DNA of 40,013 nucleotides from an uncultured bacterium (GTDB lineage: Bacteria; Verrucomicrobiota; Kiritimatiellia; RFP12; UBA1067). Location of the stretch: positions 1-40,013 of the forward strand of contig CACYQU010000028.1 in NCBI GenBank assembly GCA_902776615.1, in the 5' to 3' direction. Positions 2-31,840 of this stretch are shown one piece after another; the first letter of the stretch is position 1; every line of letters starts with the position of its first letter. The position numbers and the translations under genes were made by a program. The notes under the pieces were generated by a model. The model was not told the origin of the DNA and did no database searches. It saw only the letters and a program-made list of their open reading frames with translations.

Positions 2-940
2 GGGCCAAGCGCCCAGCAGCACGGCGTGAAGATGTCCGAATACATCAACGCGCACGCCGAGGAGTTCGCGCTCAAGGGCGAGAAGCCGTTCTTCATCCTT
101 TCCCACAAGATGACGTACTTCGCGTGCAACTCGAAGCTCAAGGCGTTCCCGAACGCAATTGCCTTTTGCGGCCACTGGCATTCGAGCATGGCCAACTGGC
201 GCACCAACATCATGTACGACAGGAACTACAAGCTGTTCCCCTACATCAACTGCGGCGCCTGCCGATACGACGGCGGTAACGGGCTCAGTGAGGATTGTAT
301 GAAGGAGAGAACGGAGGGCTGGAGCGACGCAGACTTTCATTTCCAGCACCCGTCGCGCCAGGGGCTGGTGGTGAGCGTCTTCGACGGCGTCGGCGTCGTG
401 ATGGACCGGCGCGAGTTCACCCGGGGTGGTCGGATCGGTCCGCCGTGGATGTTCCCCGTCGGACAGTTCGAGACCAAGCCATATTCGCAAGCGACGCTCA
501 AGACGAAGATCGGCAACCCGGAGTTCCGTCCCGATGCCAAGATCCAGACTTACATGGACAAGGTCGACACGGGCGGCAAGCCCATCTTGCCCAAGCGGGT
601 GAAGGACTTGATCGCCAACATGTACCGCAAGCCGCAGAGAAAGGTTGAGAAGCCGTCCCTGTGGATCGAGATTCCAATGGCGGACGGCAACCCGAAGTCG
701 CGCGTCTACGCGTACGACGTGGTGGTTATGGCCGACGACGATTCCGAGAACCGCTACTTCAAGAGTGTGTTTTTCGCGGGGGTTGGATTCGGCGAAGGCC
801 ACGAGGACAACGACGGCATCACGCTTGTGGACGTGCCGGTCCAGGATCTTCCCAAGGGGAAGAAGCTGACCGTCGCCGTCAGGCCCGTCAGCTCGCTTGG
901 CACCAAAGGCAAAACAATAGGGACGACGATGAGAGTGTAA
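2..940 (+). CDS. Calcineurin-like metallophosphoesterase, 5' truncated by window edge
   Basis: The reading frame is open to the first base of the window, so the N-terminus lies outside; the GTG at 26 is only the first possible start inside and is unlikely to be real. The motif SHKMTYFAC followed by FCGHWHSSMANWR fits the last metal-binding blocks (a conserved His, then GHxH) of calcineurin-like phosphoesterases; the earlier D-x-H and GD blocks would be upstream. About 110 C-terminal residues (SLWIEIPMADG to the end) look like a beta-rich accessory domain. The substrate cannot be told. It is probably secreted, like its neighbours, but no signal peptide is visible here. The last 20 codons (ending GTKGKTIGTTMRV) are repeated almost exactly, out of frame, at the 3' end of the next gene, and the stop codon runs straight into an octamer repeat array. 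Confidence 0.75.
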   Translation, partial: GPSAQQHGVKMSEYINAHAEEFALKGEKPFFILSHKMTYFACNSKLKAFPNAIAFCGHWHSSMANWRTNIMYDRNYKLFPYINCGACRYDGGNGLSEDCMKERTEGWSDADFHFQHPSRQGLVVSVFDGVGVVMDRREFTRGGRIGPPWMFPVGQFETKPYSQATLKTKIGNPEFRPDAKIQTYMDKVDTGGKPILPKRVKDLIANMYRKPQRKVEKPSLWIEIPMADGNPKSRVYAYDVVVMADDDSENRYFKSVFFAGVGFGEGHEDNDGITLVDVPVQDLPKGKKLTVAVRPVSSLGTKGKTIGTTMRV

Positions 941-1120
941 AGTGTGAAGTGTGAAATTTAAGGAGAGAGACTATGAAGAATGTGGAATTGCGGAATTGTG
1001 GAATTATGAAATTATGGAAATATGGAAATGGGCGCGTCTCGCGTCTCGTGTCTCATGCCATAATGACATTGGGCGTTTGCATATTTGCATATTTCCACAC
1101 TTCCACAATTGCATATTGCG
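930..1120 (+). repeat. Octamer repeat cassette A (purine arm, spacer, pyrimidine arm) over the GH89 start
   Basis: From 930 to about 1030 the + strand is a run of degenerate 8-bp units of the type ARTRTGRA (for example AGTGTGAA, ATTGTGGA, AATATGGA). From 1069 to 1120 the reverse complement of the same unit appears (TGCATATT, TCCACACT, TCCACAAT). The two arms form an imperfect inverted repeat around a spacer of about 40 bp. The purine arm carries the ribosome binding site and start codon of the GH89 gene, and the pyrimidine arm encodes the hydrophobic core of its signal peptide (LGVCIFAYFHTSTIAY). Similar cassettes occur at 3028, 5817 and, right arm only, 7707. Confidence 0.8.
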
Positions 1121-3018
1121 GCGAAGCCGCGCCGCCGCCGCCAGTCAGGATGGCGTACAACTACTGCACGCTTGCCTACTCTATGGCGGGTTACGGCGAA
1201 GCGGAGTGGCGCGCGGAGATTGAGCGCCTCGCCGCCAAGGGCTACAACGCCGCGCTCGTGATGGCCGGCATGGCGAAGACGTGGCAGCTGACGCTCGGCG
1301 AACTCGGCGCGAGCGACAAGCAGATAAAGTCGTTCATCCCCGACGAATGGGCGCAGCCGTGGTGGCTCATGGGCAACCTCGAAGGCGAGGGCGGTCCGCT
1401 AACGGACGAGGAAATCGAAAAGGACGCGGAACTCGGGCGCATGATCGTCGGCGAGATGAAGAAGCGCGGCATCCGCCCCGTCCTTCAGGGTTTTACGGGG
1501 ATAATGCCGACGTGGAGTCCGTCGCTCGCTTCGCTCGCCGGCGCGAAGTTTGTGCCGCAGGGGAAGTGGAACGGCTACGAACGCCCGACCGTTCTTGCGC
1601 CGACCGACCCGGCGTTCGGCCACGTCGCTGAAATCTGGTATGCGAATCTCAAGAAAGTCTACGGCGTCGACAATGTTGATTTTCTCGCAGGCGACCTTTT
1701 TCACGAAGGCGGCAAGACGGGCGATCTCGACGTGACGGAATGTATCCGCGCGGTGCAGGCGGCGCAGCAGAGGGCGCTCCCGGGCGTCGTGTGGATGGTG
1801 CAAGGCTGGCAGAGGAACCCCACTCCCAAAGTCTGCGCGGGGCTTGAGCCGAAGTTCACGATAGTCGAACAGCTCGTCGACGACATGGGCAACGGCGCGG
1901 ACCGCAGCGGCGGCTACGGCGAACTGCCGTGGATATGGTGCGAGGTGCAGAACTTCGGCGGCAACATGGGCCTTTTCGGCGGTCTGCCCACATACGCGGC
2001 GCTGGGCCGCGCGGCTAAAGGCAAGGGCGCGGCGACATTTCGCGGCTATGGGTCGCTCTCCGAGGCGTATGGAGCGAACCCCGTCGGGATAGATCTCTTC
2101 GAGGACATGATGATGCGCAGCGCCGGCGCCGAGATGACTGAGCAAGAACTTGACGCCTGGCTTGGTGCCTGGATTGCCAAGCGGTACGGCTTTTCCAGCC
2201 CCAACTCCCAACTCTCAACTCTAAACTCTAAACTTCACGAGGCGTGGCGGCTTCTTTGGCACAGCGTCTACAGCTGCCGCCGCAGGCAGCGCGCGACGAA
2301 GAACGCCATGACGCTTGTGCCGGGCTGGGACGAAAAACTGGCGGACAAGGCGATCGACCCTACCGAGCGCGAGAAGAGCGGTCGCTACTGGAACCCGGAG
2401 GACGTCCGCCGCGCGGCAGAGATATTCACAGAAGCCGGCGAGAAAATCGCCGCGACAAAGCCGTCCGCTGTTGGCGACGTCGCGCTTTCGGCGTTCGCTT
2501 ACGACTGGGCTAATGTCGTCCGCCAGGCGATCGCCGACAGAAGCGCCGGGCTTCTCGCCGGGATGAAGGGCGATGCCGCGCGCCAGAAGGCGTATCTCGA
2601 CTGCTTCGAGGCGATGGACGACGTGACGGCGTGCGTCCCGGAGTTCCGGCTCGACTTCTGGGAGGAGCAGGCGCGCGCGAAGGCGGGCGAGCGCGGCCCG
2701 AGGGCCTTCCGCCGCATGATAACGACATGGAACAATCCGCACGAGCGCCAGCGCAATCTCAACGACTACGCGCGCCGCGAATATGCGGGGCTTCTTCGCG
2801 GCTACTACCGGAAACGCTGGGAGGCGCTTTTCAAGTTCACCGGCGCGGACGGGAAGTTGGACGAGAAAGGCTTCAAGGCGGCGCTCAACGCGCTTGAGAA
2901 AGACTTCTGGGCGAATGGCGTCGAGACGCAGCCCATGCCTCACGACAATCTCGCCGCGCTCGCCGAGCGCGCGAAGTCCGCCCCGTCAGCTCGCCCGGCA
3001 CAAAGGGCAAAACAATAG
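973..3018 (+). CDS. Secreted GH89 (alpha-N-acetylglucosaminidase-family) protein
   Basis: The 681-residue protein has a signal peptide (core LGVCIFAYFHTSTIAY near residue 45) and then the GH89 layout: PWWLMGNLEGEGGPL (about 130), VLQGFTGIMP, GDLFHEGG with a candidate catalytic Glu245, QNFGGNMGLFGGL, and AWRLLWHSVYSC. GH89 enzymes release terminal alpha-GlcNAc from heparan sulfate or mucin glycans. Where the family typically has P-E-G-I with the second catalytic Glu, this protein has P-V-G-I (Val371), so activity is doubtful. Five 7-bp repeats (2201-2235) add about 12 residues between RYGFSSP and AWRLL. The last codons read through a displaced copy of the upstream gene's tail, so the original C-terminus may be lost. 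AAGGAG at 959-964, 8 nt from ATG 973, supports the start. Confidence 0.85.
   Translation: MKNVELRNCGIMKLWKYGNGRVSRLVSHAIMTLGVCIFAYFHTSTIAYCGEAAPPPPVRMAYNYCTLAYSMAGYGEAEWRAEIERLAAKGYNAALVMAGMAKTWQLTLGELGASDKQIKSFIPDEWAQPWWLMGNLEGEGGPLTDEEIEKDAELGRMIVGEMKKRGIRPVLQGFTGIMPTWSPSLASLAGAKFVPQGKWNGYERPTVLAPTDPAFGHVAEIWYANLKKVYGVDNVDFLAGDLFHEGGKTGDLDVTECIRAVQAAQQRALPGVVWMVQGWQRNPTPKVCAGLEPKFTIVEQLVDDMGNGADRSGGYGELPWIWCEVQNFGGNMGLFGGLPTYAALGRAAKGKGAATFRGYGSLSEAYGANPVGIDLFEDMMMRSAGAEMTEQELDAWLGAWIAKRYGFSSPNSQLSTLNSKLHEAWRLLWHSVYSCRRRQRATKNAMTLVPGWDEKLADKAIDPTEREKSGRYWNPEDVRRAAEIFTEAGEKIAATKPSAVGDVALSAFAYDWANVVRQAIADRSAGLLAGMKGDAARQKAYLDCFEAMDDVTACVPEFRLDFWEEQARAKAGERGPRAFRRMITTWNNPHERQRNLNDYARREYAGLLRGYYRKRWEALFKFTGADGKLDEKGFKAALNALEKDFWANGVETQPMPHDNLAALAERAKSAPSARPAQRAKQ
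2201..2235 (+). repeat. Five tandem 7-bp repeats inside the GH89 gene
   Basis: Five consecutive 7-bp units (CCAACTC twice, TCAACTC, TAAACTC, TAAACTT) encode the low-complexity stretch NSQLSTLNSKL in a loop of the GH89 domain. A related run (CCAACTCCAACTC) occurs in the spacer of cassette C near 5880, so the unit is not unique to this gene. Confidence 0.8.
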
Positions 3019-3038
3019 GAACAACTTTTAGAGTGTAA
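2976..3038 (+). repeat. Displaced copy of the upstream phosphoesterase gene tail
   Basis: Bases 2982-3039 match 884-941 without gaps, with about 9 differences in 58. Read in the third frame, 2976-3038 encodes a 20-residue tail containing GTKGKTIGTTFRV and a stop, nearly identical to the last 20 residues of the first gene. The GH89 frame is different and ends inside this copy (TAG 3016-3018). Octamer repeats follow both copies directly. This looks like a remnant left by recombination. Confidence 0.8.
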
Positions 3039-3162
3039 AAGGAATGTGAAAATGTGGAATCGTGAAAATATGAAAGTATGTAAATATGGAAATGCAAAGG
3101 CGCTGACAGCATTGGTTGTTTGCATACTTGCATATTTTCACACTTCAACATTTGCGTATTCT
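3028..3162 (+). repeat. Octamer repeat cassette B over the SGNH-FAD gene start
   Basis: The purine arm (3028-3100) consists of units such as AATATGAA, AGTATGTA and AATATGGA. The pyrimidine arm (3112-3162) encodes LVVCILAYFHTSTFAYS. The start codon lies in the purine arm. The layout matches cassette A, but the spacer is shorter, about 12 bp. Confidence 0.8.
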
Positions 3163-4881
3163 TTCTCGGTCTGCGCCGTCGGCGACTCGATCACGGAGGG
3201 CGGCTCGGCTTTTGTCGCGCATCGCGTGGCGCTTGAGAGCCGGTTTGCCGAGCTCGGCTGGGACATGGAGTGGAAGGGGTCGCACAAAAAGACGGAATCG
3301 GGCTCGTCCAACCTCTGCGAGGGGTGGAGCGGTCAGAATGCGGTGACGATTGCAGACAAGTACGAAGCCAACGCGGCGGGTGACAGGGCGGACCTGCTTC
3401 TCCTGCATGCCGGGCACAATTACAACGGCGGCGATCCCAGCCTTACGCCGACACCCATAAGCGTTGAAGCCATCGTCACAGCCGTCACGAATGCGCACAG
3501 GCGAATCATCGCGGCGGCGCGGGCGCAGAATCCCGATGTCATCGTACTCTATGCGAAGGTCATAACAAGTGGCGGCAACAGGGCGGTGAAGTATTCATAC
3601 ATACCCGCGCTCAACGAGGCCATTGCCGCGAACGCCGCCGCGTTCGATACGCCTGAATCTCCCGTCATCTGCGTCGATATGGCGGAAGGATGGAACTACG
3701 CGACCGACTGCGTATCGGACTGTGTCCACCCGAACGCCTCCGGCGCGGCGAAGATGGCCGCGAAGTGGATGGCGGCGTTCACCGCACTTGCCGCCGCAGG
3801 GAAACTGAGAGGTTTTCGTCGCACGATTAACGCTGCTAAGGTGGATGTCTATCCGCAGAGCTTCGAGGCGGGCGGATGGGGGCTGGATGCGCAGTTCATG
3901 GACGTCATGGGCTCGCCCTACCTGATCGCCCACGGCCTCGGCGTGCGCGTCCTCGACGCGAAGGCGCGCGTCTCGTTCCCGGAGGCGGGAGAATACCGCG
4001 TCTGGGTGCGGACGAAGAACTGGGCGGATGGAGCGCCGGGCCGCTTTCGTGTCATCGTGGACGGCAAGCCGCTCGCCAGGGAATTCGGCGCGGGACCGCG
4101 TGAATGGGCGTGGGAGGACGGCGGCACGGTTACTGTAGAGAAGGGCGAGGCGACTGTTGCGCTCAATGACCTCACCGGCTTCGACGGACGCTGCGCGGGA
4201 ATCGTGTTCGCAAGCGGCGGCGAAAAGCCCGTTGGCCCTCTCAAGGTTGACGAGGCGAATGTCGCAGAGACGGTGAATGCCGATTTCGTCGTCGTTGGCG
4301 GTGGAATGCCCGGGACGTGCGCGGCGGTCGCGGCGGCGCGGCGCGGGCTAAAGGTCGCGCTCGTGCAGGACCGGCCCGTGCTGGGCGGCAACGCGTCCGG
4401 CGAGATCCGCGTCTACTGCGCGGGCGAGGCTAAGCATCCGCTCGTCAGGGAGCTGCGCAACTACTTCATGAACCGTGACGTGAACATGCCCTGGTGCGAC
4501 GAACGACGCATGCGCATCGTGGAGGACGAAGAGAACATAGAACTGCGTCTTTTGACGAGGGCGTTCGGCGTCGAGAAAAACGCAGACGGCACGATTGCCG
4601 CTGTGAAGGCGCTAGATTTGAAGTCCAACCGCGTCGTCCGCTTTGAAGCCCCGCTTTTCTGCGATGCAACGGGCGACGGCTGGGTCGGTTTTTGGGCCGG
4701 GGCCGACTGGCGCATGGGCCGCGAGGCGAAGGACGAGTTTGACGAGAGCCGCGCGCCGGAGACGGCCGACGGCGACACGCTCGGTGCCTCCATCATGTGG
4801 ACGAGCGCGGACGCGAACATGGCCGTCCCGTTCTCCGCTACGGCGAGTGGCGCTGGGAATACGGCATCCACCGCGACATGA
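3052..4881 (+). CDS. SGNH hydrolase fused to FAD-dependent oxidoreductase, N-terminal part (frameshifted)
   Basis: After the repeat-encoded signal peptide comes an SGNH/GDSL hydrolase domain: GDSITEGG, then LLLLHAGHNYNGG, then DCVH. From the alternative GTG start at 3046, the nucleophile is Ser48 and the Asp/His pair is 225/228. Residues about 255-395 resemble the beta domain that precedes FAD_oxidored proteins (GGWGLDAQF, GEYRVWVRTKNWADG). From about 412 an FAD-binding Rossmann motif begins (VVVGGGMPGTCAAVAAAR, then LGGNASGEIR). The frame breaks near 4830, after the FAD_oxidored-like stretch MWTSADANMAVPF, and ends at 4881; the rest continues in another frame. The hydrolase could deacylate or desulfate-prime glycans, but the substrate is unknown. 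ATG 3052 is preferred because AAGGA lies 8 nt upstream. Confidence 0.75.
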   Translation: MWNRENMKVCKYGNAKALTALVVCILAYFHTSTFAYSFSVCAVGDSITEGGSAFVAHRVALESRFAELGWDMEWKGSHKKTESGSSNLCEGWSGQNAVTIADKYEANAAGDRADLLLLHAGHNYNGGDPSLTPTPISVEAIVTAVTNAHRRIIAAARAQNPDVIVLYAKVITSGGNRAVKYSYIPALNEAIAANAAAFDTPESPVICVDMAEGWNYATDCVSDCVHPNASGAAKMAAKWMAAFTALAAAGKLRGFRRTINAAKVDVYPQSFEAGGWGLDAQFMDVMGSPYLIAHGLGVRVLDAKARVSFPEAGEYRVWVRTKNWADGAPGRFRVIVDGKPLAREFGAGPREWAWEDGGTVTVEKGEATVALNDLTGFDGRCAGIVFASGGEKPVGPLKVDEANVAETVNADFVVVGGGMPGTCAAVAAARRGLKVALVQDRPVLGGNASGEIRVYCAGEAKHPLVRELRNYFMNRDVNMPWCDERRMRIVEDEENIELRLLTRAFGVEKNADGTIAAVKALDLKSNRVVRFEAPLFCDATGDGWVGFWAGADWRMGREAKDEFDESRAPETADGDTLGASIMWTSADANMAVPFSATASGAGNTASTAT

Positions 4882-6062
4882 TCGCCGAGGGCGAGGAGAT
4901 ACGCGACAGGATGCTGCTCGCGATCTACGGCGCGTTCTCGCTTGCTAAGAAGAGGCCGGAGAACGCGAACAAGGTTCTGAACTTCTGTCCGTACCTTATC
5001 GGCAAGCGCGAGTCGCGCCGCATCATGGGCGACTGGATCCTTTCGCAGAAGACCGGCACGTGGGGCATCGACCTCCACTACGACGGCCACAAGCCGGGCG
5101 TGGACTTCCTCTCGCGCAACACGTTCGACAACGGAGGCCGCTTCTGGATTCCCTACCGCTCGATATATTCGCGCAACGTCGGCAACCTCTTCGTCGTCGG
5201 ACGATGCTTCAGCTGCACGCACGTGGGGCTGGGTGCGCCGCGTGTCATCAGCACTCTCTCGCAGCTCGGCGTCGCTGCGGGCGAGGCGGCGGCGATGTGC
5301 CGCGAGCTGGGCGAGACGCCGCGCGGAATCTACAAGAACGGCCATGTCCGCAGGCTGCAGGAGATTCTCGGCGGTGGCTTCCCCGGAGTGCCGGACCGGG
5401 AGACGGCAGGCTGGCTCATCGTCGACGACGAATCCGACGGGGTGAAGTTCGGCAAGGGGTGGAGGATGTTCCGCAACACCAACGGCGGCCACTTGGGGCT
5501 GTGCTCGCACTCTGCAAACGCCAAGGGCGCGATTGCGGAGCCGGCGACTTATCCTCTTCCCGTCGCAGAGGCGGGGCGCTACGCTCTCATGGGGAAGGGG
5601 CCATACATGTGGAACGCCAAGCCCGGCTCGGCCACGGCGATGGAAATCGTCTCCGGCGGTAAGGCCGTTGCGTTCAAGGCGGATCAGGCGCAATCGACCG
5701 GCGAGTGGGTGAAGCTCGGCGAGTTCGACCTTGAGCCGGGTGCGACCCTGACCATCATCCCGGCGAAGTCCAGAGGCCACGTCGTCGCCGACGGCTTCGC
5801 GCTAGTTCCCGCAACATGTGAAAATATGAAATTATTGAAATATGAAAGTATAATTGAGTTCGAGAAAGGAAAAATCCACTCTCCAACTCCAACTCGTTAC
5901 TTCAACTTGCTGGCAGCATTGGGCGTTTGCATATTTGCATATTTCCACATTCCCACATTTGCATATTGCGACGCAGTAGCCGGGCCGGCGCGCGATTTTT
6001 GCGGCTGGGGCGCGCTCGCTCCCGTCGCACTGCCCGCCGAATGGCCGTTGAAATCAAACTGA
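4797..6062 (+). CDS. FAD-dependent oxidoreductase, C-terminal part, reading into a second gene head
   Basis: Homology resumes at about 4836 with RYGEWRWEYGIHRDM and continues through NFCPYLIGKRESRRIMGDW, FWIPYRSIYSRNVGNLFVVGRCFS and ISTLSQLGVAAGEAAAMC, the C-terminal part of the FAD_oxidored family. A golvesin-like beta domain follows (about 5450-5815, ending VVADGFALVP). The apparent start at 4797 lies before the break and is not a true start; this is one gene with the part at 3052-4881, joined after an indel or a small deletion. No stop codon follows VVADGFALVP. The frame runs through cassette C and 31 further residues of unrelated sequence to TGA 6062, so this gene has lost its own stop and is fused to another gene's signal peptide. 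Confidence 0.75.
   Translation: MDERGREHGRPVLRYGEWRWEYGIHRDMIAEGEEIRDRMLLAIYGAFSLAKKRPENANKVLNFCPYLIGKRESRRIMGDWILSQKTGTWGIDLHYDGHKPGVDFLSRNTFDNGGRFWIPYRSIYSRNVGNLFVVGRCFSCTHVGLGAPRVISTLSQLGVAAGEAAAMCRELGETPRGIYKNGHVRRLQEILGGGFPGVPDRETAGWLIVDDESDGVKFGKGWRMFRNTNGGHLGLCSHSANAKGAIAEPATYPLPVAEAGRYALMGKGPYMWNAKPGSATAMEIVSGGKAVAFKADQAQSTGEWVKLGEFDLEPGATLTIIPAKSRGHVVADGFALVPATCENMKLLKYESIIEFEKGKIHSPTPTRYFNLLAALGVCIFAYFHIPTFAYCDAVAGPARDFCGWGALAPVALPAEWPLKSN
5817..5970 (+). repeat. Octamer repeat cassette C, fused to the end of the FAD gene
   Basis: The purine arm (5817-5850: AATATGAA, AATATGAA and relatives) follows the last FAD-domain codon. A spacer of about 70 bp contains heptamer-like CCAACTCCAACTC. 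The pyrimidine arm (5919-5970) encodes LGVCIFAYFHIPTFAYC. An ATG at 5826 would give a separate 78-residue product with a signal peptide, but no ribosome binding site is visible. The 31 codons after the signal peptide (to 6062) resemble nothing I recognise and are probably the stump of a deleted secreted protein. Confidence 0.75.
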
Positions 6063-7560: not shown

Positions 7561-7691
7561 AAAGATGTTTTGAAGACTTTCTTTAAACGGCGGACATTAT
7601 ATCAAACCCCTGTAAAATACTCTAGTAGCACCCTGCAAAAAAGTAAGATAGCGGGGTGTAAGAAATTCAGGTATCACACCAAGGAGGCGGC

Positions 7692-10600
7692 ATGATGAAG
7701 AAACTATTGGGTGTTTCCATAATTGCATATTTGCATACTTTCACATTTGCATACTCTGCAAGCGTCAATATGCTCTCGTGCTGTCCGGGCGAGGACACCG
7801 CGACCCAGGCGCGATTCGTCTGGCACTCCGACAGCGACGCATGCCTGCTCTTCTGTGCGAAGGCGTCTGACACGACCGGTGCACACACGATCCTTCCGTA
7901 CAGCAAGACGAAAAAGCCAGTGACGTTCAGGTCGCCTGATGGCACATACTACAAATACACGGCGGAACTTTCCGACCTCGAACCCGGCACGGAATACGTC
8001 TACTGGGTCGAGATCGGCAGCGAAAAGTTCCCGGAGCAGCGTTTCAAGACGGCGGGGACGGGCGGCAGCTTCAACTTCCTCTGGATGAGCGACGTGCATT
8101 CCCATCCCGACAATCCTGGCAAGATGACGACTGTAGAGCTGCTTCGCCAGGATGCCGAGGCGCGGACGGCCTCGTCAGGAGGGATCGACCTCGTTCTCTT
8201 TTCCGGCGACGCGGTGAAGTACGGCTCGCGCTACGACAACTGGCAGCAGTGGAACGGCGCGCCGACGGTGACGAACTACACGTTCGCCATGGTTCCCGGC
8301 AACAAGGAGTACTACTACACCGGTTCGAGCTCATTCTACGACTACTACTGGTATCTGGCCGTCAGGAACAATCCATCCAACGGTCCAAATGCGACGGAGC
8401 AGGAGGGTTGCTACTGGTTCTTGCGCGACAAGGTCCTTTTTGTCGGCATCGACTCGCTGATCCACAAGGGGTCGAGGATGGAAATGTACGACAGGAAGAA
8501 CGAGGTACTTGCGGCGCAGACGAACTGGTTCGACAAAGTCGTCACATCGCAGCGCGGAAAGTTCCGCTACCTCGTCGTCTTCCAGCACGATCCGTGGTTC
8601 GTGTATGCGGCGACGAAGAACTCGTTCGACAAGTCGCGGGGCAACTACGACGTGTGGCGGCATGTCTTCGACAAGCACAAGGTCGATCTGGCGCTCTCCG
8701 GCGACGAGCACAACTACATCCGCACGAAGCCGATGCGCGGGGATGCCGCGAATTCCGACGGTACGGTCTACATGGTCGCGGGGCAGATCGAGGAATCGAA
8801 CTACAGCGCCACCATCACGAAAGACATAAGCAGCTACGGCAATTCGAACGCGACGAAATACTTCGACTGCATGGGTGCGACGGATGCGTCGTGCGGTGCC
8901 TGCTGGGTGGAGGTGCGGCCGGAATCCCTCAAGCTCACGTATTACTGGGACAAGTGGCAAAGCCCGAATTACAAGGTATACGACACCGTTACGATATCTC
9001 CCAAGGAAAGGGGATGGACGTTCGAGGAAATCGGCGCCAAGGCACACAAGCGCTACCGCTTCGCCGTGGATGCGCCGAGGAGCGATTCGGGGAAAATGCA
9101 GTTGTCCGAAATCGAGCTTCTGGATGCGAACGGGGATGTGATTTCGCCAAGTGATTTTACGCTGGCTTGGGATTCGACGACGACGAACTCGGCAGGGCAG
9201 AAATACCCATCGGGCGAAAATCCGGGCCTTGCCGCAGACGGAAAGCTCAATACAAAGTGGCTGGACTACCGCGCGGGGCTTGACAATCCTGCGGAAGTGC
9301 GCGCCGCGGCGTGGCTCGACTTCCGCTTCTCGACGGCTGTGAAGATATCCGGCTACCGCTGGTACACCGCCAACGACGACGTTACGTATCCCAGCCGAAC
9401 GCCGGTCGCGTGGACGCTCACTGCATTTGATGACGGTGACGATACGTGCTACATCCTCGATCGTGTCGTCGGCTACGACTCTCCAAAGGCGAACAAAGTC
9501 CTCGCGTACCCGCTGCCGCCTTCGCCAGACGAGCCCGACGAACCGGCCGGGCCTGGGGAATCGGCCGTCACAACCGCTGGCGGAACCTACTACGCATTGA
9601 GCGTCGGCGTCAACAACTACGAAAACGACAGGCAGGCCAAGCTCGGCGGCTGCGTTGCCGACGCAGAGGACGTGCTGAGCGCCTGCACGAACGCCGTCAA
9701 GGGCCTGTGGACGGCGGGCAACTGCCAGGGGCTATGCGATGCTGACGCGAACAAGTCTGCCGTCAGGAAGCAGTTCAACGCAATTGCCGCGCAGGCGCAG
9801 GGCGGCGATACGGTTCTCTACTACCATTCGAGCCACGGCGGCGACGATTGCATCTGCCTGTACGACGAGGATTACACCGCAGATGAACTTGCAAGCGACC
9901 TAATGGAGTTCAGTGCGGGTGTCCGTGTCGTAGTCGTGCTAGACACATGCCATTCGGGTAGCATGTTCAAGGGTGGCGGCGATGCTTCGTCCGGGTCGGG
10001 TCCGTGGAACTTCGCCGCAAGCGTCGAGGCATACATGGACGAGATGCGCTCCAGCGTGCGGAAACGGGGAGCCAAGGCCGCTGCAAGCGGGCCGTCCGTC
10101 GGGTGGGTCACGGCATGCGACGACGACCAGCTGTCCGTTGAATCAAACAAGCGCGGCTGGTTTACGAGGCCGTTTGTGGAGGCGTGGAAGGCGGATGCCA
10201 CAGATGCGAACGGCGACGGCTGGAACGATTTCAAGGAGGCGTTCAATATTGCCGCTCCCAAGGCAACCAACACCGAACGCGCGCCCCAGACGTTCAATGA
10301 AGACCTTCTCAGGAGCGTCGCCGCCTACGAGGTTGCCTATCATCCCAAGGCGTCAGACAAGTGGCTGGATGAGACGATGGAGATGCGGCTTTCCACAGGG
10401 ACTTGGTCAGAGGATGTAGCATACGGCGAGGACGGAAGGGCGTATCTCGACAGCAACGGCGGCGAAATCGCATTTTCTCCCTACAACGCTTCAACCGGCA
10501 ACGTCGTGACGGTCGAGGCGAAGGCGCAGTTCTGCGAATATTCCAAGGACGATGTGCCTGGCGCAACTGCGCAGGCCGCCATCCGGCTGGGTACAAACGG

Positions 10601-11498
10601 CTGCTTTCAGGTGTGGGCGAAGACAGGGAACAGGGAAGAGGGAACAGGGAACGGGGAAGAGGGAACAGGGAACGGGTGGGTGGATGTGGAAGCAGATGGC
10701 TTCACGCCCGTCAGCGGCGAGGAATACACGCTTCGCTTCACGTTCGACTACTATGCCGGGACGTATGGGGTGGAGGTTAAGACAGGATTAACAGAATTTA
10801 CAAGATTGGTGGAAAGGGAAAATCCTGATAATCCTGCAAATCCTGTCAAAACGACGTTTCCCATTGCGGTATCCACCAACTGCGTCTCTCGCGTTGCGTT
10901 CAAGGGCGATACGTACTTTACTTCGCTTGGCGGCGACTGCAGGATGGTCGTGGTCGGCTTTGCCGAGGACGAGTCGCTGGTGCTGAAGGACAATGCCGAG
11001 GTCATCCTTGACGCGGCGAAGGCGGCGTGGCTCAACAGCTGCGCGGGCGGCAAGGCGGCTGTCGGCAGTGCGGCGGCTGGTCTTTCGGCAAAGGAGTTTT
11101 CCGACGCCTACCTTCTCAATCTCGACATCACCGACGACGACCGCTCATACTCATTTGAGATCACGGGCGTAGATGTCGGGGCGGGAAGCGTGACTGTCGC
11201 CGTAATGCTTACGCGGAGCGGCGAGATTGCGCAGAAGATCAACGGTGTCGTCAAGTTCTACGGCGCGGCGACCTTGGAGGACTTCAAGACGGCGGCATCG
11301 CCGCTCCGACAATTTCAGCAAGGGCGACACCGCGACCGCCACGATTCCGCTCGACGGCGAAACCCCGCCCGCCTTCTTCAAGGCGAATATAGAGGAGAAA
11401 TGAGGATGGAAGTGGATCAAGCCTCATGCGGAGAGGGACCCCGCCAGGCCCTTGAAAAACGGGCTTTCGCGGCACCCTGGAATATCCCCAGTTTTTGA
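7692..11498 (+). CDS. Large secreted protein: phosphoesterase, discoidin-like, caspase (C14) and LamG-like domains; 3' frameshift
   Basis: The order is: signal peptide (repeat D, FAYSAS); a purple-acid-phosphatase-like Fn3 domain (about 25-125); a calcineurin-like phosphoesterase (126-430: WMSDVHSH, LFSGDAVKYG, VPGNKEYY, FQHDPW, SGDEHNYIRT); a discoidin-like domain (about 460-620); a caspase-like C14 domain (635-870) with YYHSSHGG (His715) and VVVLDTCHSGS (Cys753); and a LamG-like domain (930-1130). Two usual metal ligands are changed: GNHE is GNKE (Lys205) and GHxH is GDEH (Asp338). Two repeat insertions lie in the LamG part. At about 11307 one base too many shifts the frame; without it the protein ends PLDGETPPAFFKANIEEK with TGA at 11403, and the 32 codons beyond 11307 to 11498 in the current frame look spurious over much of their length. 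AAGGAGG (7680-7687) supports the start. No function is assigned. Confidence 0.8.
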   Translation: MMKKLLGVSIIAYLHTFTFAYSASVNMLSCCPGEDTATQARFVWHSDSDACLLFCAKASDTTGAHTILPYSKTKKPVTFRSPDGTYYKYTAELSDLEPGTEYVYWVEIGSEKFPEQRFKTAGTGGSFNFLWMSDVHSHPDNPGKMTTVELLRQDAEARTASSGGIDLVLFSGDAVKYGSRYDNWQQWNGAPTVTNYTFAMVPGNKEYYYTGSSSFYDYYWYLAVRNNPSNGPNATEQEGCYWFLRDKVLFVGIDSLIHKGSRMEMYDRKNEVLAAQTNWFDKVVTSQRGKFRYLVVFQHDPWFVYAATKNSFDKSRGNYDVWRHVFDKHKVDLALSGDEHNYIRTKPMRGDAANSDGTVYMVAGQIEESNYSATITKDISSYGNSNATKYFDCMGATDASCGACWVEVRPESLKLTYYWDKWQSPNYKVYDTVTISPKERGWTFEEIGAKAHKRYRFAVDAPRSDSGKMQLSEIELLDANGDVISPSDFTLAWDSTTTNSAGQKYPSGENPGLAADGKLNTKWLDYRAGLDNPAEVRAAAWLDFRFSTAVKISGYRWYTANDDVTYPSRTPVAWTLTAFDDGDDTCYILDRVVGYDSPKANKVLAYPLPPSPDEPDEPAGPGESAVTTAGGTYYALSVGVNNYENDRQAKLGGCVADAEDVLSACTNAVKGLWTAGNCQGLCDADANKSAVRKQFNAIAAQAQGGDTVLYYHSSHGGDDCICLYDEDYTADELASDLMEFSAGVRVVVVLDTCHSGSMFKGGGDASSGSGPWNFAASVEAYMDEMRSSVRKRGAKAAASGPSVGWVTACDDDQLSVESNKRGWFTRPFVEAWKADATDANGDGWNDFKEAFNIAAPKATNTERAPQTFNEDLLRSVAAYEVAYHPKASDKWLDETMEMRLSTGTWSEDVAYGEDGRAYLDSNGGEIAFSPYNASTGNVVTVEAKAQFCEYSKDDVPGATAQAAIRLGTNGCFQVWAKTGNREEGTGNGEEGTGNGWVDVEADGFTPVSGEEYTLRFTFDYYAGTYGVEVKTGLTEFTRLVERENPDNPANPVKTTFPIAVSTNCVSRVAFKGDTYFTSLGGDCRMVVVGFAEDESLVLKDNAEVILDAAKAAWLNSCAGGKAAVGSAAAGLSAKEFSDAYLLNLDITDDDRSYSFEITGVDVGAGSVTVAVMLTRSGEIAQKINGVVKFYGAATLEDFKTAASPLRQFQQGRHRDRHDSARRRNPARLLQGEYRGEMRMEVDQASCGEGPRQALEKRAFAAPWNIPSF
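7707..7758 (+). repeat. Octamer pyrimidine arm D in the caspase-gene signal peptide
   Basis: The stretch encodes LGVSIIAYLHTFTFAYS and consists of units like TGCATATT, TGCATACT, TTCACATT and TGCATACT. It is clearly related to the right arms of cassettes A-C, but no purine arm precedes it. Here the start codon lies only 15 bp upstream, behind a conventional ribosome binding site. Confidence 0.7.
10623..10676 (+). repeat. Perfect 21-bp tandem repeat in the caspase gene
   Basis: A 21-bp unit (10635-10655) is repeated exactly at 10656-10676 and preceded by a partial copy. It encodes EEGTGNG twice, a low-complexity insertion between FQVWAKTG and WVDVEADGF in the LamG-like domain. The unit is itself built of GGGAACA/GGGAAGA 7-mers. 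Confidence 0.85.
10781..10847. repeat. Imperfect inverted repeat of 9-bp units in the caspase gene
   Basis: The left arm (10781-10807) is three 9-bp units, GACAGGATT and relatives. The right arm (10821-10847) is the reverse-complement type, AATCCTGAT, AATCCTGCA, AATCCTGTC, with a 13-nt loop. It is read through in frame as TGLTEF to NPDNPANPVK. It is a different family from the octamers but has the same architecture. Confidence 0.85.
11347..11403 (+). repeat. Re-used gene tail (second copy of 6211-6267)
   Basis: Encodes PLDGETPPAFFKANIEEK and TGA 11401-11403 in the frame shifted by one base from the upstream caspase protein. It matches the tail of the Tat remnant at 6211-6267 in about 49 of 57 bases. 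It marks the probable true end of the large secreted gene. Confidence 0.75.
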
Positions 11499-24479: not shown

Positions 24480-24537
24480 GTCAGTGATCGTTGCGCATTG
24501 TTTTGTTGGGGCCCAGACGGCAAGTTCGAAGCAAATA

Positions 24538-24546
24538 TGGTATAAT
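24538..24546 (+). promoter_or_regulatory. Extended -10 promoter of the permease-kinase gene
   Basis: TGGTATAAT (24538-24546) is a textbook extended -10 element; no -35 box is recognisable. Expected transcription start is about 24552-24554, only a few bases before ATG 24557. The mRNA would be leaderless or nearly so. The same TATGGTATAAT string precedes the tRNA at 38427. Confidence 0.65.
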
Positions 24547-24556
24547 GTCAGACACA

Positions 24557-27532
24557 ATGCTATCAGAAAACAAAGAGTTTCGTGGCCTGTCAGCATATCT
24601 TTCGCCGATTGCCGTTTTGGGCTTGGCTGTAGGTTGCAGTGTAGGATGGGGTTCGTTTGTCATGCCCGGCACGATGTTTCTGCCGAGCGCGGGGCCGTTA
24701 GGCGCTGTGATCGGAATGGCGCTCGGTACAGCCCTCATGATGGTAATCGGCTTGAACTACCATTATCTTATGCAGCGGTATCCCAACGCTGGCGGCGCAT
24801 ACGCCTACGTCTCCAAAATCTGCAACTACGACCATGGCTTTCTGTGCGCATGGTTTCTGGTTCTCACTTATGTCGCGGTGGTGTGGGCTAATGCGTCGGC
24901 TTTTTGCCTCATAGGGCGTAATCTGCTTCATGGTCTTTTCCAGGTTGGCGGGCACTACACAGTCGCCGGCTATGACGTATATACGGGCGAGATTGCCGTA
25001 ACACTGGTCGCGCTCGCGGCGCTTGCGCTTGTCAGCATCTGCGGAAAGCGCCTTGCGTCGCGCATCAACACGGTGCTTGCCGTGGTGCTTGTGCTCGGGA
25101 TAGCCGCTGGGCTGGCGGCGGTCTTCTCGGCGAATCCCGATGCGGCGGTGAAAGCCTTTACGCCACTTTTTGCCGAAGGGCCGGCCCGCGCGGTGCAAGT
25201 CTTCGGAATCCTGGCGCTTGCGCCTTGGGCTTTTGTGGGCTTTGAGTCGGTTTCGCATTCCGTGGAAGAGTTCGCCTTCAAGCGCCGCTGGACGGTGTGG
25301 ATAATCGGTGCGGCGCTTGTACTGGGTGCGTTCTGCTATATAAGCCTCACGATTATCGCAGCTTCGACGGTTCCGCCGGGGTGCTCAAACTGGAGCGAAT
25401 ATGTGGCGCGCATCGGTGAATACAAGGGCATCGAAGGCTTGCCGGTTTTCTACGCCGTCGAGAAGGCCGTTGGCAGTTACGGTGCGGAGCTTCTCTGCTT
25501 CGCGACCTTCGCCGCGATTGCAACCGGTCTTATAGGAAATCTTATCGCCGCTAGCCGCCTTGTCTACGCCATGTCTCGCGACGAGATCATGCCACAGTGG
25601 TTCTCGCGCCTCTCGGCGGATGGCACGCCGCGCAATGCAATGCTTTTCATTGTGGCGCTTTCGCTTTTTGTGCCTTTCGTCGGACGCACTGCGATCGGCT
25701 GGATCGTTGACGTTACCACCATTGGCGCGTGCGTCGCCTATGGTTATGTGTCCTACTGCGCGTTGGTGCATGCCAAAGGCGAAGGATGCCGACACGTCAT
25801 GGCGAGCGGCGCGGTAGGGCTTGCGGCATCCGTTGCGTTTACGGTCTATTTTCTCGTGCCGCAGCTATGGTCGCTCGGCGCGTTCGCGCCCGAGTCGTAT
25901 CTCGTTCTGGCGGCGTGGAGCATAGTGGGCGTTCTTTATTTCCGCCGCGTCATCGGCGAAGACAAGGCCCACCGCTTCGGCAAGACGACTGTCACGTGGC
26001 TGGTTATGATGGCTTTGATATTCTTCACTTCGCTCACATGGGTGAAGCAGGCTACGCACCGCGTGGCTGGCGAGGTGATGCAGCGCATCGGCGACTTCTA
26101 TGCTGGCGGCGGATCAGGCGCAGGAAGCGCCGGCGAGGGCGGTTTCATCTCGCGGCAGATGACGCATGTCGGCGATGCGCTGATGCGCTACAGCCTTGTG
26201 CAGATGCTGCTTGTGATGTTGGCGCTTTACATCATGTTCAACATCTATCGTCATCTCATGCGCCGCGAGCGCCGCGCCGAAATGGAGCGTGTGCGCGCCG
26301 AGTCGAGCAGCAGGGCCAAGAGCGTGTTCCTCTCCAACATGAGCCACGACATACGGACACCCATGAACGCAATCGTCGGCTATACCGCCCTCGCCGAGCG
26401 CGAAGGCACGACGATGGAGCAGATGCGCGGATATCTCGCGAAGATTGGAAGTGCGAGTGGCCATCTGCTGGCCCTCATCAACGACATTCTCGAGATGAGT
26501 CGCATAGAGGCAGGCAGGATGGAGCTCGAACCGGTGGCGATCGACATCGGGGCTTTTGTCCGCGAAACGTACGATATGTTCCGTCCGCAGACGGAGGCTA
26601 AAGGCGTGACGCTCTCGTATGATATCGCCAATCTGAGCCACCGCCATGTGATGTGCGACGGCAATCGCTTAAACCGCATAATGATCAATCTTCTCGGAAA
26701 CGCCGTCAAGTTCACACCGTCCGGCGGTTCGGTGAAGATAACGCTCGCAGAGGTGGCCGGCTCCGGCGAGGAGACGGGCGGCCGCGCCAGATACGAACTG
26801 CGTGTGAAGGACAGCGGTATAGGCATGAGCCCCGAATTCGCCGCCCATGTCTTCGATTCGTTCTCGCGCGAGCGGACGTCCACAGTGCGCGGCATCGAGG
26901 GAACGGGTCTCGGAATGGCCATAACGAAGAATCTCGTCGATCTCATGGGCGGCGACATAAAAGTTTCGACGGAGCGCGGAAAGGGCACCGAATTCACGAT
27001 CACCGTCGACTTCGAGATCGCGTCCGGGCCTGCCGCAGGCAAAGAAGAGGCGGCCGCGAAAGAGGACGAGGGCGGCATTGACTTCTCGGGCAAGAGGATT
27101 CTTCTGGCCGAAGACAACGAGATCAACCGCGAAATAGCTGTGGAGGTGCTTGCCGACGCAGGGTTTGATGTCGATTCCGCCGAGAACGGGCAAGTCGCCT
27201 TCGAGAAGGTGCGCGACGGCGGCGCTCGAAGGTATGACGCCGTGGTTATGGATGTACAGATGCCAATCATGGGCGGCTATGAGGCGACGCGCGCGATAAG
27301 GGCGCTCGGGGTTGCGGGCGTGAGCGATGTTCCTATCGTGGCGCTTTCGGCCAATGCGTTCGAGTCGGATGTCAAGGCTGCGCTTGCCGCAGGTATGGAT
27401 GCACATGTCGCAAAGCCTCTGCACATACCCGAACTCATGGCTGCGCTTTCGAAGATAATCTACAATCGCCGCGCCAACGCGGCTGACACAAACCGCAAAG
27501 AAAAGGGGACCGATGCAGAGCAAACTGCTTGA
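24557..27532 (+). CDS. Amino-acid permease (APC)-hybrid histidine kinase-receiver fusion
   Basis: A 991-residue protein. Residues about 10-480 are an APC-superfamily permease with about 12 membrane helices (GCSVGWGSFVMPGTMF, YPNAGGAYAYVSKI, APWAFVGFESVSHSVEEF). One more helix (about 545-565) leads to a HisKA domain (NMSHDIRTPMNAIVGY, His597), an HATPase_c domain (NLLGNAVKF, DSGIGMS, GTGLGMAI) and a receiver domain (about 848-965; VVMDVQMPIMGG, Asp899; KPLH). It probably senses an amino acid or amine through the permease part, like CbrA, which uses a different transporter family. The Hpt gene overlaps its 3' end. ATG 24545 overlaps the -10 element, so ATG 24557 is preferred; no clear ribosome binding site is visible. 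Confidence 0.93.
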   Translation: MLSENKEFRGLSAYLSPIAVLGLAVGCSVGWGSFVMPGTMFLPSAGPLGAVIGMALGTALMMVIGLNYHYLMQRYPNAGGAYAYVSKICNYDHGFLCAWFLVLTYVAVVWANASAFCLIGRNLLHGLFQVGGHYTVAGYDVYTGEIAVTLVALAALALVSICGKRLASRINTVLAVVLVLGIAAGLAAVFSANPDAAVKAFTPLFAEGPARAVQVFGILALAPWAFVGFESVSHSVEEFAFKRRWTVWIIGAALVLGAFCYISLTIIAASTVPPGCSNWSEYVARIGEYKGIEGLPVFYAVEKAVGSYGAELLCFATFAAIATGLIGNLIAASRLVYAMSRDEIMPQWFSRLSADGTPRNAMLFIVALSLFVPFVGRTAIGWIVDVTTIGACVAYGYVSYCALVHAKGEGCRHVMASGAVGLAASVAFTVYFLVPQLWSLGAFAPESYLVLAAWSIVGVLYFRRVIGEDKAHRFGKTTVTWLVMMALIFFTSLTWVKQATHRVAGEVMQRIGDFYAGGGSGAGSAGEGGFISRQMTHVGDALMRYSLVQMLLVMLALYIMFNIYRHLMRRERRAEMERVRAESSSRAKSVFLSNMSHDIRTPMNAIVGYTALAEREGTTMEQMRGYLAKIGSASGHLLALINDILEMSRIEAGRMELEPVAIDIGAFVRETYDMFRPQTEAKGVTLSYDIANLSHRHVMCDGNRLNRIMINLLGNAVKFTPSGGSVKITLAEVAGSGEETGGRARYELRVKDSGIGMSPEFAAHVFDSFSRERTSTVRGIEGTGLGMAITKNLVDLMGGDIKVSTERGKGTEFTITVDFEIASGPAAGKEEAAAKEDEGGIDFSGKRILLAEDNEINREIAVEVLADAGFDVDSAENGQVAFEKVRDGGARRYDAVVMDVQMPIMGGYEATRAIRALGVAGVSDVPIVALSANAFESDVKAALAAGMDAHVAKPLHIPELMAALSKIIYNRRANAADTNRKEKGTDAEQTA

Positions 27533-29483: not shown

Positions 29484-30215
29484 ATGGACGCGTTGAGAGC
29501 TGCAGCCGTCTGCCGTGCGTACGGACGTCGGATGGTTCTCGATAAATTCTGCCTTGCTCTTGCGCCTGGCGAGTTCGCCGCTTTGATGGGCCCGAGCGGG
29601 AGCGGCAAGTCGACTTTCTTGAATGTCGCCGCCGGACTTGTGCGCGCCGATTCCGGCAAGGTCGAAATAGGCGGTGAAGTCATCACGGCGATGGGCGATG
29701 GCGCGGCGACGAAGTTCCGTCGGCGGCATATTGGCGTCGTGTTTCAGGCGTACAATCTGCTTGAATCGTCCACAGTCGAGGAGAATATTGTCATGCCGAT
29801 TCGCCTCGATCGGGCCAAAATCGATCGTTCGCGGCTGGCCTTACTCATAGAATCTCTAGGTCTCGGCGGACTCGAAAACCGCCATCCTGCCGAACTGTCC
29901 GGCGGCGAACGCCAGCGCGTCGCCATAGCGCGCGCCCTCTTTGCGAAGCCAGATGTGGTTCTTGCAGACGAACCTACAGGCAATCTCGACATGAAGTCCG
30001 CGCGCGAGATATGCGCACTCATGAGGTCTCTCAACGAGACAGAGCGCTGCGCCATGCTGCTTGTAACACACGATCCAGTCGTGGCGGCGAGCGCAGAAAC
30101 GGTCCATTTTCTGCGCGACGGACGCGTGGCGGAATCGTTCGCGACGCATGGCGACCCCGCGGAGGTGTCCCAGCGGTATCTCGATACTTACGCAGCGCCG
30201 CCCAATGCGCACTAG
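29484..30215 (+). CDS. ABC transporter ATPase, LolD/MacB-like, no permease nearby
   Basis: A 243-residue ATPase with Walker A GPSGSGKST, Q-loop VVFQAYNLLESSTVEEN, signature LSGGERQR, Walker B VVLADEPTGNLD and switch His VTHD. The A-D-E-P-T-G-N-L-D string and the NLL-x-x-x-TV-x-EN region are typical of the LolD/MacB/FtsE group, which powers lipoprotein release, efflux or envelope remodelling and not uptake. All catalytic residues are present. It starts 4 nt after the receiver-kinase gene, so it may be the phosphorelay's cotranscribed partner. No FtsX/MacB-type permease is in the window; the partner must be elsewhere. Confidence 0.92.
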   Translation: MDALRAAAVCRAYGRRMVLDKFCLALAPGEFAALMGPSGSGKSTFLNVAAGLVRADSGKVEIGGEVITAMGDGAATKFRRRHIGVVFQAYNLLESSTVEENIVMPIRLDRAKIDRSRLALLIESLGLGGLENRHPAELSGGERQRVAIARALFAKPDVVLADEPTGNLDMKSAREICALMRSLNETERCAMLLVTHDPVVAASAETVHFLRDGRVAESFATHGDPAEVSQRYLDTYAAPPNAH

Positions 30216-30247
30216 TATTTGAAGGAAAAATGAAAGGACTGCACAAA

Positions 30248-31840
30248 ATGGATGCTTCAAGACGTGGTTTCATCACAGGTGCGGTTGCGACTGCAGCCTT
30301 TGCGTCCTTGCGAGGAGGCAGTTTGCTGGCTGCGGCAAGAGCCAGGCGACTCAACATACTGTACATCATGACCGACGACCATGCCGCGCATGCAATCGGC
30401 GCGTACGGCTCGCGTATCAACAAGACGCCGCACTTGGATGCAATGGCGCGAAGTGGCATGCTGTTCTCGAACTGCTTCTGCACCAACCCGATATGCACCC
30501 CAAGCCGAGGCGGCATCTTGACAGGCGAATATAGCCATCGCAACGGTGTGCCGGTGTTCAACAACATTTCTCGCGACAAGAAGACGGTCGGCGGCTACAT
30601 GCGCGATGTCGGCTATTATTCGGCGTTCATCGGCAAGTGGCACCTCGGCGGGCCTGATACGATGCGCGACGAGGACTGGGACCGATGGATGATCTACGCC
30701 AATCAGGGCGTGTACTTCGATCCGTGGTTCTGGGAGAAGAAGGCTGGCGAGATCGTCCGCACAGAGTACAAGGGCGAGTATGCGACCGAGAACATAACGC
30801 GCGTCACCGAGGGTGTGATTGATGATGCGCTGGCGGCAGGCAAGCCGTTCTTCGTGATGATGCACCACAAGGCGCCGCACCGCAACTGGCTGCCGTCCGA
30901 CAAATACCGCGCGAAGTTTCGCGCCATGACGTTGAAGGACATCCCAATCCCTGAAACTCTCTTTGACGACTGGAAGGGGCGCGCCTCGCCGATCAGAACG
31001 ACCGCGATGACGCTTCTAAAGCACATGCGGCTCAAAGAGGATCTGAAGCTCGCTGAATACTTCGCGGGCGGCGGAAGGTTTGAGTTCGAAGGCAAGACAT
31101 ATGAGGGCAAGCGCAACGCCGCCGGTGAGTTTGTGGACGAGTGGCCCGATGGTATGGACGCGCGCGCGAAAACGGCGCTTTCGTACCTGAGGTACATGCA
31201 GGACTATCTCGCCTGTGTGCAATCCGTCGATGATTCCGTAGGCGACATTCGCGCCTACTTGAAGGAAAGGTGTGTTCTTGACAACACATTGGTCGTATAC
31301 ACCTCAGACCAGGGTTTCTTCCTCGGCGACCACGGACTTTACGACAAGCGCTTCATGATGGAAGAAGTCATAAAGATGCCTTTCATCGCGAGTTGCCCCG
31401 GCCTGATCAAGCCCTGTTCGGTTAACGACGACATGATTACGAACATCGACTTTGCGCCTACGTTTCTCGCCATAGCCGATGCACCGAAGCCAGCGCAGAT
31501 GCAGGGTGAGAGCTTTCTCAAGAGTCTTGAAGGCGAGACTCCGGCGTGTCGGCGCAAGGACTGCTACCTGCGCTATTACGTCGAGGGTGGCGAGCACGCC
31601 ACGGCCGCGTGGTATGGAGTGCGGACTCGCACTGACAAGCTGATGTTCTACTACAAGCGCGGTGAATGGGAATACTTCGACCTCGCGAAGGATCCGGAGG
31701 AATTGTGCAACGGATACGGAAACCCTGCTTACGCCGGTCGCGTCGCCGAACTGAAGAAGCGACTTGAAGAGTTGCGCGCCGAGCTTGGCGACACCGATCA
31801 GTACAAGGACGCGCAGGAGTACGGTCCGATCGGGGAATAG
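30248..31840 (+). CDS. Tat-exported sulfatase, Cys-type
   Basis: A 530-residue sulfatase that cleaves sulfate esters, probably from host or dietary glycans. The N-terminus is a twin-arginine signal (SRRGFITGAVATAAFASL). The active-site motif CTPSRGGILTG supplies Cys83, to be converted to formylglycine; metal ligands include MTDDHA near the start and SDQGFFLGDHGLYDK. IGKWHLG and HHKAPHRNW are also typical. The sulfated substrate cannot be told from the sequence. No sulfatase-maturating enzyme is in the window. ATG 30248 has AAGGA 10 nt upstream; ATG 30230 is also possible. The gene lies between the ABC ATPase and trkA, with no linked glycosidase. Confidence 0.93.
   Translation: MDASRRGFITGAVATAAFASLRGGSLLAAARARRLNILYIMTDDHAAHAIGAYGSRINKTPHLDAMARSGMLFSNCFCTNPICTPSRGGILTGEYSHRNGVPVFNNISRDKKTVGGYMRDVGYYSAFIGKWHLGGPDTMRDEDWDRWMIYANQGVYFDPWFWEKKAGEIVRTEYKGEYATENITRVTEGVIDDALAAGKPFFVMMHHKAPHRNWLPSDKYRAKFRAMTLKDIPIPETLFDDWKGRASPIRTTAMTLLKHMRLKEDLKLAEYFAGGGRFEFEGKTYEGKRNAAGEFVDEWPDGMDARAKTALSYLRYMQDYLACVQSVDDSVGDIRAYLKERCVLDNTLVVYTSDQGFFLGDHGLYDKRFMMEEVIKMPFIASCPGLIKPCSVNDDMITNIDFAPTFLAIADAPKPAQMQGESFLKSLEGETPACRRKDCYLRYYVEGGEHATAAWYGVRTRTDKLMFYYKRGEWEYFDLAKDPEELCNGYGNPAYAGRVAELKKRLEELRAELGDTDQYKDAQEYGPIGE

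Follow-up and report, generated by a model that had tools for sequence, protein, structure and literature searches.

Positions 1 to 40,013 of contig CACYQU010000028.1, from an uncultured bacterium of the class Kiritimatiellia (RFP12; UBA1067; assembly GCA_902776615.1), were analysed as one stretch of 40,013 nucleotides, referred to here as the window. An open reading frame (ORF) of 1268 amino acids on its forward strand (7692..11498) encodes a protein in which a phosphoesterase of the purple acid phosphatase (PAP) type, a discoidin-like domain and a caspase of peptidase family C14 follow one another in a single chain, and it carries this whole domain series up to a frame change near the C-terminus. 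The start codon is ATG 7692 or ATG 7695. As the initial annotation had proposed, the N-terminus resembles a signal peptide, and it stands behind a Shine-Dalgarno sequence; homologues likewise start with signal-peptide-like segments, and the protein is apparently exported. A spurious ORF was ruled out by conservation and by the ratio of nonsynonymous to synonymous substitution rates (dN/dS).

The caspase domain is assigned to the metacaspase-like C14B peptidases. A PADLOC caspase model spans residues 634-867 (E 2e-14), the best sequence match of the protein in the PDB is the Geobacter caspase homologue GSU0716 (E 2.5e-10), and a profile of 42 sequences, compared with the PDB sequences, found metacaspases and GSU0716 only, which counts against membership of C13. 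Pfam does not list PF00656 for the protein itself and gives the region as C13 (PF01650, 27.9 bits, cut-off 22.8); PF00656 does pass its cut-off of 21.4 bits in two orthologues, L058 and L021, with 43.0 and 42.4 bits, and it is matched by 34 of the 45 caspase relatives scanned. The legumain family C13 was ruled out by the scores of the orthologues, in which C14 stands against C13 at 43.0 vs 22.2 and 42.4 vs 23.5 bits. The model for EACC1-associated caspases (NF047832) reaches 36.9 bits in the window protein, far under its cut-off of 140.

The fold agrees with this assignment. Residues 436-880 were modelled by AlphaFold2 together with 41 relatives, giving a confident caspase core with a predicted local distance difference test (pLDDT) above 90 across most p20 blocks. 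With this model, Foldseek ranks GSU0716 (3bij, 9e-14) and plant metacaspases first, and VIA-align gives Z 22.1 for the plant metacaspase AtMC4 (6w8r, root-mean-square deviation 2.5 over 206 residues), 21.8 for GSU0716 and values near 20 for caspase-7 and legumain. The modelled structure thus confirms a caspase fold over residues 632-880, where the initial annotation had expected one around 635-870, and the catalytic His715 and Cys753 lie exactly at the positions it had named, invariant across the alignment.

The residues that form the S1 pocket of Trypanosoma brucei MCA2 are Cys92, Asp95, Ser156 and Asp211 (PMC4357240), and their counterparts in the window protein, mapped by motif spacing, are Cys654, Asp657, Ser713 and Asp751, which are kept in 39, 42, 41 and 42 of the 42 sequences, respectively. 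C14B enzymes cut after Arg or Lys (PMC4357240, PMC5756287), and since all four pocket residues are kept, the same specificity is expected and predicted here. The linker between p20 and p10 is itself basic, with a K/R fraction of 0.163 as compared with 0.065 elsewhere in the domain, and is the richer of the two in 36 of 41 relatives. Such a linker would suit self-cleavage, and orthocaspases do process themselves when produced in E. coli (PMC5756287). The caspase part evolves with a dN/dS of 0.20-0.34.

The phosphoesterase head, which the initial annotation had called PAP-like, is borne out by two Pfam families over their cut-offs in the window protein (Table 1). Its active site is a variant one, with the motifs D134-x-H136, GD173, GN204-K205, H299 and GD338-x-H340; the canonical GDxxY, GNH and GHxH are absent from the window phosphoesterase, where GDAVK, GNK and GDxH stand instead. 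In an alignment of 16 homologues (13 subfamily members and three distant ones), GNH has become GNK in 12 of the 13 subfamily members, G078 alone keeping GNH, and the first His of GHxH is Asp (G/S-D-x-H) in all 13, while the three distant homologues retain both canonical motifs. The other expected metal ligands (Asp134, His136, Asp173, Asn204, His299 and His340) are retained. Between the window gene and orthologues with the same allele (L054, L057, L056 and L058) the dN/dS of the phosphoesterase is 0.13-0.17, and it is 0.11 between L056 and L058; the values of 0.34 and 0.42 belong to comparisons with L053 from G078, the core of which is a different allele. The low dN/dS together with the changed motifs points to purifying selection on a phosphoesterase domain with an altered active site.

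The discoidin-like (F5/8 type C) domain between head and caspase takes its label from orthologues. Pfam does not find PF00754 at residues 437-600 of the window protein, but in the orthologue from G002 the homologous stretch just exceeds the cut-off (29.9 bits against 28.2), while two other orthologues fall below it (25.6 and 23.9 bits); the domain proposed by the initial annotation can be called discoidin-like through that orthologue. The LamG-like domain that it had proposed further on found no support: neither the window protein at residues 906-1085 nor its homologous stretches (seven stretches in all) have a LamG family match in Pfam, and AlphaFold2, with five aligned sequences, gave a model of the region too poor for a structure search (pLDDT 38). 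The last 350 residues form a module common to a C10 peptidase (L023), an endonuclease/exonuclease/phosphatase protein (L010) and more genes of the genus, and the module at 906-1085, unassigned to any family, is shared with other secreted hydrolases. After about position 11306 the C-terminal end homologous to the orthologues (..TATIPLDGETPPAFF..) runs on in the next frame, as the initial annotation had allowed for in correcting the frame before 11403. This frame change is present in the contig, where it would reflect either a true lesion or a fault of assembly. The same contig has a second one, which splits an FAD oxidoreductase (window 3046-6062, + strand) over two overlapping frames, with profile positions 1-171 in one ORF and 268-416 in the next.

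Table 1. Features of the fusion gene and its product, with window coordinates and the evidence for each
Feature	Residues	Position	Strand	Evidence
Shine-Dalgarno sequence AGGAGG		7682..7687	+	Sequence; 4 nt before ATG 7692, 7 nt before ATG 7695
Signal-peptide-like N-terminus MMKKLLGVSIIAYLHTFTFAYS	1-22	7692..7757	+	Sequence inspection
PAP N-terminal FN3-like domain	33-120	7788..8051	+	PF16656, 32.0 bits (cut-off 30)
Metallophosphoesterase catalytic domain	128-342	8073..8717	+	PF00149 Metallophos, 51.3 bits (cut-off 21.5)
Discoidin-like (F5/8 type C) domain	437-600	9000..9491	+	PF00754 match in orthologue; orthologue alignment
Metacaspase-like C14B caspase domain	634-867	9591..10292	+	Profile, PDB, Pfam and structure evidence
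Catalytic His715 (SSHGG)	715	9834..9836	+	Invariant in 42 aligned sequences
Catalytic Cys753 (DTCHSG)	753	9948..9950	+	Invariant in 42 aligned sequences
Basic p20-p10 linker RSSVRKRGAK, candidate self-cleavage site	786-795	10047..10076	+	K/R enrichment; cleavage presumed
EF-hand-like loop DANGDGWNDFKE, candidate Ca2+ site	838-849	10203..10238	+	Sequence; conserved in orthologues; Ca2+ binding presumed
Module earlier labelled LamG-like	906-1085	10407..10946	+	No Pfam match over cut-off; AlphaFold2 pLDDT 38
C-terminal tail module		10947..11403	+	Alignment with orthologues, sequence; homologous reading shifts frame after ~11306 and stops at 11403

Since PF00656 misses most members, the window's own included, and is unfit for a survey of the genus, protein queries were used for that purpose. 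Across 346 genomes of the Kiritimatiellae class, phosphoesterase, discoidin-like domain and caspase lie complete in one frame in five (G000, G065, G078, G002 and G220); in G013 the contig breaks off the fused gene where the caspase is nearly complete, and in G082 the contig opens within the discoidin-like domain or shortly ahead of it, with the caspase present. The carriers span two genera of one family, G220 being from the other genus. The named carrier records are RUG14632, RGIG2266 (goat duodenum), Tb.RUG.75, RUG14463, RUG14492 and SRR873606_bin.25; those carrier records that state a source give ruminant digestive-tract samples, and some state none. The order thus recurs in other genomes, where the initial annotation had suggested that it be sought: recurrence in other independent assemblies excludes chance, and recurrence in separate assemblies of two genera rules out misassembly as the source of the order. 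In the caspase tree the seven carriers cluster together (93/82, 94% of bootstraps) and, as far as that tree tells, the combination of PAP, discoidin-like domain and caspase appears to have arisen once. As to a viral origin, viral contigs held only two weak caspase relatives (21-22% identity), and plasmids gave only partial matches, one domain at a time, among the matches listed (8 of 14 records).

The make-up of the protein varies among relatives. G026 and G254 have the phosphoesterase and discoidin-like domain and cleanly lack the caspase, G257 has the phosphoesterase without either, and a short phosphoesterase-only protein is found in G007, G034, G263 and, as a second gene, G013. In G220 (L058) the caspase block lies between sequences that are directly joined in G026 (..ALAYSK / VHGKW..). 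On the phosphoesterase tree the caspase label has to change three times, and in none of 200 bootstrap trees is one change enough, which makes loss or exchange of the caspase after the joining probable. Conversely, G078 and G065 differ in the phosphoesterase head while the caspase is constant: in 30-codon windows, L053 of G078 and L054 are 89-100% identical in the flanks and only 50-78% identical over residues ~145-450. Either the phosphoesterase core would have been replaced as a block or one of the two assemblies would be chimeric there.

The caspase relatives place the fusion in a wider group. Among the 45 scanned, many have fn3, PKD, PPC, LTD, LRR_5 or PAP_N-like domains, and many from Kiritimatiellae, Lentisphaerae and Planctomycetota assemblies combine signal-peptide-like starts with extracellular-type domains, so that secreted-looking C14 proteases appear common in this bacterial group. 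The initial annotation had implied that a secreted caspase was surprising; the export-like N-terminus stands, but the surprise is lessened by the many relatives that start in the same way. Metallophos was matched in 5 of the 45, a number for which the phosphoesterase-bearing family members (five of the six there: L053, L054, L056, L057 and L058) account. Less certain, a further fusion of phosphoesterase and caspase within the genus may be represented by L052 (G012:C73, ORF 87-4460), in which a 5'-nucleotidase (PF02872, 79.3 bits; PF00149) and a long middle region precede a caspase-like domain (THGG / DSCSS; 24% identity by BLAST). It could be that exported phosphoesterase-caspase fusions are recurrent, with the 5'-nucleotidase fusion possibly independent of the PAP-discoidin-caspase protein and its exchangeable head of altered metal chemistry, and that both would be two-headed enzymes with dephosphorylation coupled to Arg/Lys proteolysis outside the cell, although we hold this generalization to be improbable. 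Two other secreted-looking relatives, L022 (G007:C77) and L049 (G072:C149), have two caspase domains per chain. A related caspase protein, L095, from Lachnospiraceae C6A11 (Bacillota) joins Kiritimatiellae sequences in the tree by a long branch and may have been acquired by horizontal transfer.

The nearest genes in the window are an AAA_14/DUF4143 gene and guaB. Neighbours are not conserved, since the genes beside the fusion in G026 and G002 differ from those in the window, which speaks against a defence or suicide system built on an operon. Further away, a NAGLU-type alpha-N-acetylglucosaminidase (973-3018, + strand) and a sulfatase with an SGSH_C domain (30011-31840, + strand) together suggest, from their domains, the breakdown of sulfated glycans. 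Elsewhere (24491-27532, + strand) a 1013-amino-acid frame combines amino-acid permease, histidine kinase and response-regulator domains.

We propose, with a probability of roughly 0.5, that the fusion protein is an exported, modular extracellular endopeptidase specific for Arg and Lys, which cuts itself, is held in place by its discoidin-like domain and carries an exchangeable phosphoesterase head, in Kiritimatiellae largely of the ruminant gut. In this mechanism, the chain would be exported and the caspase domain would then cut its own basic p20-p10 linker, after which the processed caspase would cleave extracellular proteins after Arg or Lys, perhaps with the aid of Ca2+. Anchoring to a surface, whether of a glycan, a cell or a particle, would fall to the discoidin-like domain and possibly also to the C-terminal module, while the phosphoesterase head would dephosphorylate substrates close by. 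Such a protein would most probably serve to digest and scavenge gut contents outside the cell, not to bring about cell suicide, a reading supported by the C-terminal module common to the C10 peptidase and the endonuclease/exonuclease/phosphatase protein, and the sulfatase and NAGLU-type enzyme of the window are in keeping with glycan breakdown. Several points weigh against the proposal. Activity of the phosphoesterase is doubtful because two canonical active-site histidines are missing, the discoidin-like domain is over the Pfam cut-off in one orthologue only and its label names no ligand, export and surface attachment are read from inspection of the sequence, and the gene context yields no direct functional clue.

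The changed histidines lead to the strongest alternative, one compatible with the protease part of our proposal, namely that the phosphoesterase has no catalytic activity and serves as a binding domain, leaving the caspase as the sole enzyme. The near-complete loss of both motifs in the subfamily, set against their retention in the distant homologues, would fit such a domain; however, the kept metal ligands and the dN/dS of 0.13-0.17 make altered rather than lost chemistry equally possible, and we regard a dead head as a substantial but minority possibility. It is unlikely that the caspase acts mainly in cis, cutting its own inter-domain linkers after export and so freeing or activating the phosphoesterase, like self-processing cysteine protease domains elsewhere. 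The basic p20-p10 linker, the self-processing of orthocaspases in E. coli (PMC5756287) and the replaceable head beside a constant caspase in G078 and G065 are what one would expect from such an arrangement, but the presumed site of cleavage is within the caspase and not between caspase and phosphoesterase, and the proteins of G026, G254 and G257 and the stand-alone PAPs indicate that the phosphoesterase needs no protease. Less probable again is an antagonism effector, displayed or released against competing microbes, with variable phosphoesterase and C-terminal modules: block replacement of the phosphoesterase core and the gain and loss of modules do resemble polymorphic systems, and fratricide has been proposed for extracellular metacaspases (PMC3501461), but no immunity-like gene is conserved beside the fusion gene, its neighbours differing between genomes, and the relatives carry ordinary digestive-type domains. 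Least probable is a target in the ruminant host, either its proteins or its gut cells, which the stated sources of the carriers, the export-like start and the discoidin-like domain would allow, since no host-targeting feature was found in the protein and since Lentisphaerae and Planctomycetota assemblies with no animal source on record also contain relatives of the caspase family.

Bacterial caspase homologues have mostly been treated as proteases of cell death or defence that act inside the cell. A whole group of them in the Kiritimatiellae and related phyla looks exported and digestive, with one lineage joined to a phosphoesterase, and this raises the testable question of whether the C14 proteases of these bacteria are ordinary extracellular enzymes. 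Because secreted C14 proteases appear common in the group, the window protein is best seen as a new architecture in a known protease family, its parts known and their combination unusual and new; its anatomy is well supported, while a digestive role would follow by inference. The conserved GNK/GDxH site also offers a clean case in which to ask whether function survives the replacement of two histidines in the active site. The initial annotation knew of no described protein with this order, and none was present in the literature found in our limited search; the four papers that pair Kiritimatiellae with caspase mention the latter once each and have titles of animal or human studies. A survey of 671 prokaryotic metacaspases (2012) describes many multidomain and some probably extracellular members, and the words phosphatase and metallophos are absent from its text (PMC3501461).

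Among known systems, the EACC1-associated and other defence caspases (NF047832, PMC8195603) have a related caspase domain, but the window protein is apparently exported, stays below the family cut-off and has no effector-associated domain that we could find; in conflict systems, caspase and calcineurin-like domains serve as alternative effectors, which is a different setting (PMC8195603). Legumain (C13) shares clan and fold with the window caspase, the orthologues favouring C14 by score. Purple acid phosphatases, such as diphosphonucleotide phosphatase 1 (3zk4), have the PAP N-terminal and Metallophos domains in common with the head but differ from it in the active site, where the first motif of the window protein is DxH, with Lys176 in place of the Tyr of GDxxY and GNK/GDxH for GNH/GHxH. 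The caspase fold of residues 632-880 is shared with AtMC4 (6w8r) and the four S1-pocket residues with T. brucei MCA2; unlike both, the window protein is bacterial, apparently exported and equipped with N-terminal hydrolase and binding domains. The closest likeness is to the bacterial metacaspases or orthocaspases (MEROPS C14B, PF00656; GSU0716, 3bij), which are alike in fold, His-Cys dyad and S1-pocket residues and which, according to the survey (PMC3501461), also have multidomain architectures and in some cases N-terminal export signals. What sets the window protein apart from them is a caspase that follows a PAP-type phosphoesterase and a discoidin-like domain in the chain.

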